A stretch of 64,000 nt of DNA, from NCBI RefSeq assembly GCF_001580365.1, contig NZ_CP014480.1, forward strand, positions 3,123,981 through 3,187,980, read 5' to 3'. The notes below the pieces were generated by a model, which saw only the letters and a program-made list of their open reading frames with translations, searched no databases and had not been told where the DNA came from. Shown in pieces: positions 8,711-13,338 of this stretch. The first letter of the stretch is position 1. The number at the start of each line of letters is the position of its first letter. The DNA comes from Kocuria turfanensis (GTDB taxonomy: Bacteria > Actinomycetota > Actinomycetes > Actinomycetales > Micrococcaceae). The position numbers and the translations under genes were made by a program.

Positions 8711-10516
8711 ATGGTCGAGCCGGTTCCCACGAGCGCGATGTCCGACGCCGCCCCCGGCGTCTCCGAGCAGTACGAGGCGGTCCGGGACCGTGTCCTGGAG
8801 CTGCGCGAGGACTACGACCGGGCGCGGGAGGAGTTCCGCTGGCCGCGGATGGAGCACTTCAACTTCGCCCTGGACTGGTTCGACCACGTGGCCCGGGACC
8901 CCGGGCGGGGGAGCCGGGACGCCTTGTGGATCGTGGCCGCCGACGGCTCGGAGCAGCGGCGCACCTTCGCCGAGCTCGCCGAGTCCTCGGCCCGCACCGC
9001 GAACTGGCTGCGGGGCCTGGGGGTCCGCCGCGGCGACCGCATCCTGCTGATGCTGGGCAACCAGCTGGAGCTGTGGGAGACCCAGCTCGCCGGGATGAAG
9101 CTGGGGGCGCCGCTGATCCCGACCGCCGTCATGATGCCGCCCGCGGACCTGCAGGACCGGGTCCGGCGCGGCCGGGTCTCCTGGGTCGTGACGGACGCCG
9201 CCAACGCCCCGAAGTTCGCCGCGGTGGACGGGGACTACGGTCTCGTCGTCGTGGGCGGGGACGCGGAGGTGGAGGCCGCGCGGGCGCAGCTGCCCGGCCG
9301 GGCGGTGCGCCGCTACGCCGACTCCGCCGGCGCGGACGCCGTGTTCGTCCCCGAGGGGGTCACGCGCTCCCGGGACCCGCTGCTGCTGTACTTCACCTCC
9401 GGGACCACGTCGCAGGCCAAGCTCGTGGAGCACACCCACTACTCCTACTCGTTCGGGCACCTCTCCACCGTCTACTGGATGGGCCTGCGCCCCGGGGACG
9501 TGCACCTGAACATCGCCTCGCCCGGGTGGGGCAAGCACTCGTGGTCGAACTTCTTCGCCCCGTGGATCGCGGAGGCCACCGTGTTCATCCTCAACCAGGA
9601 GCGCTTCGACGCGGTGGGCCTCATGGAGCAGATGGGCCGCGCGGGCGTCACCAGCTTCTGCGCCCCGCCCACCGTGTGGCGGATGCTCATCCAGGCCGAT
9701 CTGCACCGCGTCCAGGACCCGCCGGTGTCCGCCGTCTCCGCCGGGGAGCCGCTGAACCCCGAGGTGATCCGCCGGGTGCAGGAGGCGTGGGGCGTGACGA
9801 TCCGGGACGGCTACGGCCAGACGGAGACCACGCTGCAGATCGCCAACACTCCCGGCCAGCCGGTCGTGCCCGGCGCCATGGGCAGGCCGCTGCCGGGCTT
9901 CGTCGTCGAGCTCCTGGACCCCCGCACGGGCGCGCCCGCCGAGGAGGGCGAGATCTGCCTGAAGGTGGACGACGATCCCCCCGGGATCATGGCCGGCTAC
10001 ATCGACGAGCCCGAGCGCACCGCCGAGGTCGTCCAGGACGGCTGGTACCACACCCGGGACATCGCCCGCCGGGACGAGCACGGCGTCTACACCTACGTGG
10101 GGCGCACCGACGACGTCTTCAAGGCCTCGGACTACCGGATCTCCCCGTTCGAGCTGGAGTCGGTGCTCATCGAGCACCCCGCGGTCGCGGAGGCGGCCGT
10201 GGTCCCGGCCCCGGACCCCGTCCGGCACGCCGTGCCGAAGGCCTACCTGGTGCTCGCCGCCGGGGCGGAGCCCACCCGGGAGCTCGCGGGCGAGATCCTG
10301 CGCTTCGCCCGGGAGAACCTCGCCCCCTACAAGCGGGTGCGCAGGATCGAGTTCACCGACCTGCCCAAGACGATCTCGGGCAAGATCCGCCGCGTGGTGC
10401 TGCGCGAGCGCGAGGCGGCCGCCGACCGCCCGGCGGCCGGCGCCCCGGCGGCGCCTCCCGCCGACGGCCTGGGCATCGAGTACACCGAGGCGGACTTCCC
10501 GGGACTGCGCGGCTGA
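8711..10516 (+). CDS. AMP-forming acyl-CoA synthetase
   Basis: A 601-residue ANL-superfamily enzyme starting at ATG 8711 with GAGAGG upstream. The ATP-binding P-loop is YFTSGTTSQAKLVEH. The adenylate motif is DGYGQTETT, the hinge region YVGRTDDVFKASDYRISPFE, and the catalytic C-terminal lysine lies in KTISGKIRR. The chain also has a long N-terminal region (REDYDRAREEFRWPRMEHFN) typical of medium-chain/ACSM-like and related acetyl-CoA-synthetase-like proteins. It activates a carboxylic acid to its CoA thioester through an acyl-AMP intermediate, in the cytoplasm. Acid chain length is not predictable. A possible promoter (TAGACT about 8646-8651) gives a leader of some 55 bases. A GC hairpin follows the stop codon. 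Confidence 0.9.
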   Translation: MVEPVPTSAMSDAAPGVSEQYEAVRDRVLELREDYDRAREEFRWPRMEHFNFALDWFDHVARDPGRGSRDALWIVAADGSEQRRTFAELAESSARTANWLRGLGVRRGDRILLMLGNQLELWETQLAGMKLGAPLIPTAVMMPPADLQDRVRRGRVSWVVTDAANAPKFAAVDGDYGLVVVGGDAEVEAARAQLPGRAVRRYADSAGADAVFVPEGVTRSRDPLLLYFTSGTTSQAKLVEHTHYSYSFGHLSTVYWMGLRPGDVHLNIASPGWGKHSWSNFFAPWIAEATVFILNQERFDAVGLMEQMGRAGVTSFCAPPTVWRMLIQADLHRVQDPPVSAVSAGEPLNPEVIRRVQEAWGVTIRDGYGQTETTLQIANTPGQPVVPGAMGRPLPGFVVELLDPRTGAPAEEGEICLKVDDDPPGIMAGYIDEPERTAEVVQDGWYHTRDIARRDEHGVYTYVGRTDDVFKASDYRISPFELESVLIEHPAVAEAAVVPAPDPVRHAVPKAYLVLAAGAEPTRELAGEILRFARENLAPYKRVRRIEFTDLPKTISGKIRRVVLREREAAADRPAAGAPAAPPADGLGIEYTEADFPGLRG

Positions 10517-10522
10517 GCGGCT

Positions 10523-10550
10523 GCGCCCCCGGCCCGGGCGCCGGGGGCGC
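10523..10550 (+). terminator. GC hairpin terminator after acyl-CoA synthetase
   Basis: A perfect 10-bp stem (GCGCCCCCGG with CCGGGGGCGC) and 8-base loop, beginning 7 bases after the stop codon at 10516. It has no T-run. Confidence 0.7.
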
Positions 10551-10781
10551 AACGTGACGTCATCCCGCGCCCGGGACGGGTGCCCGACAGGGGACGTCCC
10601 CGGGCCGGCCTGTCCCCACTTCGTGCCACGTTTGCCGATGCAAATGAATGGAGCCGGTGCCCCGAAGCCGGGAGAATGCCGGTGTGGCCAGCGCAAACAC
10701 ATGAAAAAACGTCGATGTCCACCGTTCTGAATATGACGTCGGCCCCCGTGACAGGTCATGGAAACCCTGCCACCATGGAGT

Positions 10782-10948
10782 CAATTGGTTCACCCGATGG
10801 GGCAGAACCAACTGATCCGTCGGGGGGCGGATCGACGGCGGTTCATCGGGGGATGGGCCGCCCGCACGCAGGCATCGGGGGGTGCCGGTGCGACCGGTTC
10901 ATCGGGGGGTGAACCGACACGGGAGCACCGCTGGGGGGCGGTACTCCC
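10782..10948 (-). ncRNA. 6C-RNA-like array: six consecutive stem-loops, five with C-run loops
   Basis: Read on the minus strand, five hairpins have loops that are nearly pure cytosine, and a sixth follows. Plus-strand positions: (f) 10921-10948, 5+5 bp around loop TGGGGG; (e) 10895-10916, 7-bp stem CGGTTCA/TGAACCG; (d) 10863-10892, CGCAC/GTGCG then GGCA/TGCC; (c) 10837-10862, GGCGG/CCGCC plus CAT/ATG; (b) 10814-10833, 6-bp stem GATCCG/CGGATC; (a) 10782-10814, 10 positions with one A-C on the plus strand. Hairpins b, d and e share the exact loop TCGGGGGG (CCCCCCGA on the minus strand) while their stems differ completely. The actinobacterial 6C RNA is known for two stem-loops with at least six C in each loop, so this looks like an expanded relative. 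In (a) and (f) the odd pair is a G-U only on the minus strand, but in (c) two odd pairs are G-U only on the plus strand, so strand is not settled. Confidence 0.6.
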
Positions 10949-10952
10949 ACCA

Positions 10953-10987
10953 GGCGAGTCTCTGCTCGCCACCGGCCGTCAGGCCGG
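10953..10987. repeat. Two adjacent short perfect hairpins
   Basis: GGCGAG/CTCGCC (10953-10958, 10965-10970, 6-base loop) is followed at once by CCGGCC/GGCCGG (10972-10977, 10982-10987, 4-base loop). They continue the hairpin series of 10782-10948 toward recQ. Individually, 6-bp stems are not surprising in GC-rich DNA. Confidence 0.4.
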
Positions 10988-10988
10988 A

Positions 10989-11043
10989 CGATGCGCCCGT
11001 TGCGGGGGCCATCCGTTCCGACGGATGGGCAGCGGGCGCATCG
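10989..11043. repeat. Long imperfect hairpin upstream of the RecQ-type gene
   Basis: The outer stem is 11 perfect pairs (CGATGCGCCCG at 10989-10999 with CGGGCGCATCG at 11033-11043). It is continued by a T-G and TGC/GCA, then a one-sided bulge GGGGG (11004-11008), then 8 perfect pairs CCATCCGT/ACGGATGG closed by the loop TCCG. This gives about 23 pairs in 55 bases, beyond what GC content alone should give. It could be part of a structured leader, a terminator for the minus-strand RNA region, or a DNA cruciform. Confidence 0.5.
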
Positions 11044-11068
11044 CTCTGTCCGGGCCCGACCGGTGGCG

Positions 11069-11108
11069 CCGGGCGGTGCAGTGCGGTGCGCCGTGCTGCA
11101 CCGCCCGG
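11069..11108. terminator. 13-bp perfect hairpin 47 bases before the RecQ-type gene
   Basis: CCGGGCGGTGCAG (11069-11081) pairs perfectly with 11096-11108 around a 14-base loop. It lies just upstream of the candidate recQ -10 box, so on the plus strand it would shield that promoter from read-through. There is no T-run. Confidence 0.45.
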
Positions 11109-11154
11109 TGACCGCCGCGCCACGGCGTCGGTGGACCCTGGAAGACTGGGACCC

Positions 11155-13338
<2,184 letters not shown>

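Follow-up and report, generated by a model that had tools for sequence, protein, structure and literature searches.

6C RNA is widespread in actinobacteria, and its function is still called an open question in passages of PMC9569102. Passages of PMC8539372 equate it with scr3558 of Streptomyces, and those of PMC12395582 describe B11 as the 6C-type RNA of mycobacteria. According to the same passages, the terminator C-loop of B11 in M. marinum acts on guanine tracks close to ribosome binding sites; the conservation of B11 across species with differing targets is discussed as an open question; sponges appear there in reference titles only (PMC12395582). In the open-licence literature, no sponge of 6C or B11 was found, no antisense or kissing partner of 6C, no small-RNA sponge with G-rich loops, and nothing relevant on the small RNAs of Kocuria. 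RNA sponges of small RNAs reportedly include a tRNA external spacer sponge and a Vibrio quorum-sensing sponge. Decoys of the CsrB/RsmZ type are built of many hairpins that carry one repeated loop motif.

The window, that is, the whole 64-kb stretch of Kocuria turfanensis DNA analysed here, contains a run of nine hairpins at 10782-11043, between an acyl-CoA-synthetase-like gene and the gene for a RecQ-family helicase. The helicase is 88% identical to that of Kocuria dechangensis, the nearest named locus among the best 80 matches listed. The features are as follows.

End at 10516: acyl-CoA-synthetase-like gene, below the curated cut-off of every listed NCBIfam model.
10748-10776, plus strand: promoter-like element GTGACA-N17-CACCAT, with a predicted start at about 10783-10785.
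10782-10814, plus strand: hairpin 1, loop ACCCGAUGGGGCA; its GAUGGGG is complementary to CCCCAUC in loop 1 of 6C.
10814-10833, plus strand: hairpin 2, loop UCGGGGGG, 7 pairs (a count that takes in an inner U.G/C-G pair).
10837-10862, plus strand: hairpin 3, with a G5 run; AUCGGGGGA forms a 9-nt antisense match to 6C loop 2.
10864-10891, plus strand: hairpin 4, loop UCGGGGGG.
10895-10916, plus strand: hairpin 5, loop UCGGGGGG; 98.2% of cells paired in the clade-A alignment.
10921-10948, plus strand: hairpin 6, loop UGGGGG(G), complementary to CCCCCCA in loops 1 and 3 of 6C.
10953-10970, plus strand: hairpin 7, GGCGAG-UCUCUG-CUCGCC, lacking a G run and invariant in clade A.
10972-10987, plus strand: hairpin 8, CCGGCC-GUCA-GGCCGG, its stem invariant in clade A.
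10989-11043, plus strand: long GC-rich hairpin with a G5 bulge, the likely 3′ end or terminator, with tail CTCTGTCCGG to 11053.
11115-11154: conserved promoter-like block of recQ itself (conservation 0.77-0.80 in clade A).
11155-13338, plus strand: recQ-family helicase gene, ATG at 11155, above the TIGR00614 cut-off.

The first-pass annotation had described three hairpins sharing one 8-base loop, and these are present: TCGGGGGG on the plus strand (CCCCCCGA on the minus) occurs at 10820, 10875, and 10902, each time on a perfectly paired stem (6, 4, and 7 pairs). The plus strand of the window holds four TCGGGGGG 8-mers in all and no CCCCCCGA. The two further run loops and the sixth hairpin that it listed are likewise found, as the G-run hairpins at 10837-10862 and 10921-10948 and the hairpin at 10782-10814. 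Its range of 10782-10948 does hold hairpins; its right-hand limit, however, is not the end of the unit, which extends on to the terminator-like hairpin at 10989-11043. We infer an independently transcribed, plus-strand RNA that spans some 265 nt, from about 10784 to 11050. Two further sequences were observed nearby: a conserved block, CTGTCCCCACTTCGTGCCAC, at 10610-10629 upstream of the promoter-like element, which recurs in related form in groups B and C, and a long inverted repeat at 11069-11108 between the array and recQ, in a stretch that is not conserved in clade A.

Within the window alone, evidence for the array is mixed. The segment 10770-10975 folds better than 200 of 200 shuffles on either strand (z of -5.2 for minus and -5.7 for plus), and a third comparison with shuffles, of the full RNA, gives a z of -7.5; in the predicted minimum fold of the full RNA, hairpins 1 and 2 give way to an alternative fold. 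A loose count of hairpins (G5 or C5 loop, perfect stem of at least 5) finds three in the densest 200 nt of the window, a density of three or more being reached by 9 of 60 shuffled windows, and the shuffled windows hold more such hairpins in total than the real one (mean 29 versus 21). Because this density is unexceptional, the case for the array rests on comparison between genomes; the loose cluster count could not rule out a chance origin, and comparison does.

The locus DNA is strongly matched in 8 of the 27 genomes of the genus, which constitute clade A. RecQ is present in 25 of 27 (E <= 1e-60), and each of the 24 genomes whose DNA upstream of recQ is readable has G-run hairpins there. One genome (G001) was left out because its recQ is broken at a contig end and the printed stretch (L056/L057) is not upstream DNA; in another, G007, a group B-type sequence lies at a contig end (a pattern match only). 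The clade-A architecture has G5-G6 in five loops, G4 in hairpin 1, and the G5 bulge of the last hairpin; group B has four G-run loops and group C two to three. The group B counterpart of the hairpin at 10989-11043 has the loop UUCGGGGGAA. An acyl-CoA-synthetase neighbour within 1.5 kb upstream of recQ was found by tblastn in the eight clade-A loci only, among 26 stretches that include L057 (not valid upstream DNA) and L060 (a repeat of genome G018).

In clade A, across 8 genomes, both bases have changed in 14 of 87 pairs; group B, with 10 genomes, gives 24 of 68, and group C, with 6 distinct sequences, 8 of 29. One shared outer pair was left out of each of the clade-A and group B alignments (A1 and A2). 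Shuffles reached as many in 0, 0, and 6 of 500 cases, respectively, and structures slid along the alignment score far lower. One of the five covariation measures, that of further pair types, is unexceptional (70, 38, and 189 of 500 for the three groups). While the stems covary, the loops mostly remain G5-G6. Exceptions occur: hairpin 1 varies within clade A, where 81.7% of its cells are paired; the G run of hairpin 3 is missing from one of the eight genomes (L037); and in L039 the run of hairpin 5 is interrupted and that of hairpin 6 reduced to G4. In group C, the middle loop is G4 in 4 of 7 genomes and has no G run in two (L040 and L044). Hairpin 2 is paired in 100% of cells in clade A, with two pairs changed on both sides. 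A protein-coding array was rejected, as single-base indels between the hairpins in alignment A1 would break its frames. As far as aligned sequences can show it, comparison thus establishes the array as a real structured RNA unit, Kocuria-wide wherever it is readable; the compensatory changes that aligning the recQ-upstream regions was proposed to reveal are there, and they bear out the suggestion of a multivalent functional RNA with conserved loops on stems kept by pairing.

What kind of RNA this is can be judged first against 6C. The first-pass annotation had read the array as an expanded 6C RNA, and that identification does not hold: the Rfam 6C model (RF01066) has no match at gathering score, nor any up to E = 10, in 10500-11200, and no other Rfam 15 family matches the array at gathering score. 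The same genome has its 6C elsewhere, at G000:C1:1552958-1553034, where the match (47.5 bits) passes the curated cut-off. All 27 genomes of the genus have a 6C match with C-run loops at E <= 0.1, over Rfam's curated cut-off in 15; 25 of the 27 make up the 6C alignment (A6), two (G024 and G001) being left out owing to contig edges. At the Kocuria 6C loci (L001 and L139-L164), the 75-nt core modelled by Rfam is preceded by one more C-loop hairpin; a promoter-like TTGCnC-N17-TAnRGT is also seen by eye in most of clade A. The array resembles 6C in its tandem hairpins, six-base homopolymer loops, and terminator-like last hairpin; it differs in having G for C on the strand that appears to be transcribed, in its greater number of loops, and in its locus. 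Hence it is most likely an RNA distinct from 6C, with plus-strand G-runs where 6C displays C-runs, its loops being complementary to those of 6C.

The three 6C loops in this genome are GAUCCCCCCAUC, AUUCCCCCGAU, and GAUCCCCCCAUG, and the array loops UCGGGGGG, AUCGGGGGA, CUGGGGGG, and GAUGGGG are antisense to CCCCCGA, UCCCCCGAU, CCCCCCA, and CCCCAUC, respectively. The longest of these matches is the 9 nt of hairpin 3. A G run of any origin will pair with a C run, and the summed antisense match was compared with sets of loops given random flanks: in the window's own genome it reaches 52 nt versus 44.6 (sd 2.2), with 4 of 300 sets as high. The total exceeds the null mean in 23 of 23 genomes tested (G001, G007, G020, and G024 left out), which are not independent of one another, and the test takes in all G4+ and C4+ runs, some of them in stems or tails. 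Group B shows no significant excess, with 28-118 of 300 sets as high, and neither do two clade-A genomes (56 and 75 of 300); in group C, 8 to 54 of 300 sets are as high. Most array G runs are preceded by U or C, in agreement with the A or G found after the C-runs of 6C. Predicted loop duplexes range from -8.6 to -17.8 kcal/mol with the 6C loops versus -5.2 to -10.3 with what we take to be the sequence of the 16S 3′ end. Five genomes (G004, G018, G020, G021, and G023) have one or more 6C loops of only C4 while most of their array loops are still G6, one array loop being G4 in four of the five; loop lengths therefore track poorly. The flanks of the loops may serve loop shape instead of pairing.

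These complementarities suggest that the array could be a multivalent sponge, or decoy, for 6C and other C-loop RNAs, a reading to which we assign an even chance. Transcribed from the plus strand as an RNA of roughly 265 nt, the array would display several G5-G6 hairpin loops, and these would kiss the C-loops of 6C. Once occupied, the C-loops would be kept off G-tracts near ribosome-binding sites, and 6C targets would thereby be released; the G-loop RNA would compete for the same terminator C-loop that B11 uses. Both the pairing with 6C and the relief of its targets we infer from loop complementarity. Action through C:G pairing, which the first-pass annotation had also proposed, may hold with its direction reversed, in that G-loops would titrate a C-loop RNA. 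As in known small-RNA sponges, an RNA would titrate a regulatory RNA by base pairing; the array would differ in using many short loop-loop contacts and in belonging to an actinobacterial genus, and it is known here from its sequence. That 6C occurs across actinobacteria and the array only in Kocuria counts against the sponge.

The main rival, which we think rather unlikely, keeps the same plus-strand RNA but gives its G-loops another partner than 6C: C-run mRNAs, or a protein, in the way that RNAs of the CsrB type sequester CsrA. Identical loops repeated on varied stems would fit a protein decoy, and the lack of significance for extended 6C complementarity in group B also speaks for this alternative; the occurrence of a 6C match in 27 of 27 Kocuria genomes, and the U or C before the G run that agrees with the 6C loops, speak against it. 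The array shares with the CsrB/RsmZ type its many hairpins, a single repeated loop motif, and a decoy logic; the repeated loops in the window are, however, UCGGGGGG and CUGGGGGG, which lack GGA.

Both the sponge and the decoy presuppose the plus strand, and a third alternative, which we hold to be improbable, is that the locus encodes a 6C-like RNA on the minus strand, whose five loops with C-runs would act on G-rich sites in mRNAs. The minus strand folds well also, and its loop CCCCCCGA resembles 6C loop 2; five lines of evidence point to plus. G.U pairs are tolerated in an RNA stem and A.C pairs are not. On the plus strand, G.T is found in 44 pair columns versus A.C in 17 (14/6, 23/10, and 7/1 in A1, A2, and the group C alignment A3; binomial p 0.0007, though the columns are not independent of one another and the count is not unanimous). 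Hairpin 6 has one C.A mismatch on plus, equivalent to G.U on minus, in 7 of 8 clade-A genomes. With alignment A5, which adds G020, in place of A3, the counts are 44 and 19. The control, 6C RNA of the same genus with its strand known, gives G.T 11 versus A.C 2.

Promoter-like sequences agree. The best hexamer pair of the left flank, GTGACA-N17-nAnnAT, precedes hairpin 1 at nearly one distance in 8 of 8 clade-A loci, and 6 of 10 loci in group B have TGGAAA-N17-CAGCAT. In the right flank read on minus, the hexamer-pair scan yields no candidate in 7 of 8 clade-A loci. Over 24 loci, the mean best score is 7.5 of 12 for the left flank on plus versus 3.3 for the right flank on minus, in a scan with unequal flanks (the clade-A right flank is shorter), with A2 and T6 required in the second hexamer and the absence of a candidate scored as -1. 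Conservation among seven clade-A genomes is 0.79-0.99 per 20-nt step over 10755-11054, stands at 0.96 just before the end of this stretch, and then drops to 0.47 and 0.01. In the right flank, only the block beside the recQ ATG (11115-11154) is conserved, and the left flank has partly conserved blocks. Genome G020 retains the left flank and has a tRNA-Ser as its right flank; there, ATTTTT starts six bases past the last stem.

The last line comes from covariance models. R2, built on group C (8 rows, 7 of them distinct, since L043 and L060 are the same genome), finds 5 of the 8 clade-A arrays at a genome-wide E <= 0.05, every one on the recQ-sense strand, and matches the window at 10862-10957 on plus (27.3 bits). 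Models of both groups also match the opposite strand of one array each: R1, built on group B, gives 33.6 bits on that of a group B array versus 33.0 on the plus strand of the window, and R2 gives 29.2 bits (E 0.03) on that of one of its own training arrays, from G018. Such matches arise because the hairpins are nearly strand-symmetric; since opposite strands score too, this is the weakest of the five strand lines. The array RNA is probably read from the plus, recQ-sense strand, and the first-pass annotation probably took the wrong one; together with the absent Rfam match, the strand lines led us to reject an expanded 6C on the minus strand as the main reading.

Reading in the recQ sense raises a further alternative, very improbable in our view: a cis-acting 5′ leader of the recQ mRNA, acting as an attenuator or a protein-binding leader. 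The array is indeed upstream of and in line with recQ at 24 of 24 readable loci, but G020, which has no RecQ match (E <= 1e-60), retains a group C array with 78% identity, so the array is not always linked to recQ. As this genome keeps the array and, by our reading, the conserved block close to the recQ ATG is promoter-like, the array is most likely not a recQ leader; strong hairpins between the array and recQ likewise oppose this role. Genome comparison, as far as sequences go, thus shows the array to be independent of recQ. Least probable of all is a DNA-level feature devoid of functional RNA, such as a protein-bound cruciform or a cluster of bidirectional terminators, which the position between two genes and the DNA symmetry of the hairpins would suit and against which stands the excess of G.T over A.C, an RNA signature with which the 6C control agrees.

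The plus-strand G-loop RNA has no convincing member outside Kocuria among 295 genomes of the family or, with R2, 396 of the order, in searches whose filters lose weak matches. Among the 295, R1 under strict filters finds its own 10 training genomes only, and R2 at E <= 0.05 finds nine Kocuria genomes and five others. The five loci outside Kocuria (L193, L195, L196, L198, and L199) resemble single terminator-like stems, of which only L196 has a G5 loop, and none was accepted as a member. Within the genus, R2 at E <= 0.05 matches 14 of 27 genomes, one of them (G018) through the opposite-strand match noted above. Order-wide at E <= 0.001, it matches 1 of 396 genomes, the window's own, at a second G-loop locus. 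Upstream of recQ in 78 non-Kocuria loci (among the best 80 matches, with at most 700 nt read), no array was found; 16 of the 78 have a single short G- or C-run hairpin there and the rest none. A mobile origin of the window array was also considered and rejected, as there was no match in plasmids or phages.

Related G-loop elements were observed elsewhere in Kocuria. The second chromosomal locus, L201 (G000:C1:2046082-2046422, minus strand), scores 42.8 bits with R2 and has a terminator-like hairpin with a G6 loop, followed by TTTCTCC. Others lie on two small contigs of the same genome that may be plasmids, C4 (69.6 kb; L208, C4:58191-58295) and C5 (52 kb; L212, C5:31404-31437), and in genomes G003, G015, G022, and G025. 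A G6 loop in a terminator-like stem is found in L201, L202, L204, L205, L207-L210, and L212, which are candidate accessory RNAs or hairpins; a second GGATCCGGGGGGATCC hairpin is present in L201, L202, and L208, and L204, L205, L209, and L212 lack a T-rich tail. On a plasmid of K. rosea RP1 (NZ_CP126486.1, 47790-47931; L214 3001-3142), a G-loop element lies between cold-shock and LysR genes, with no annotated feature beneath the match. A degenerate partial copy of the first array hairpins (window 10793-10851) is seen at G000:C1:3522901-3522959 (L018 1501-1559).

The locus is a real, previously unrecorded structured RNA gene that adjoins recQ across Kocuria, judged by its covarying stems, and it adds to the catalogue a structured RNA outside every Rfam 15 family at gathering score. 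We advance more tentatively the proposal that the core sponge by recQ and the accessory G-loop RNAs, on chromosome and plasmids, form a dedicated anti-6C system, which would be the first 6C antagonist. If true, such a system would give both cell and plasmids a means of tuning a global C-loop regulator, and would illustrate how two hairpin RNAs may make contact through homopolymer kissing loops alone. A natural, genus-wide inhibitor of 6C would also offer a handle on 6C function through its deletion or overexpression.
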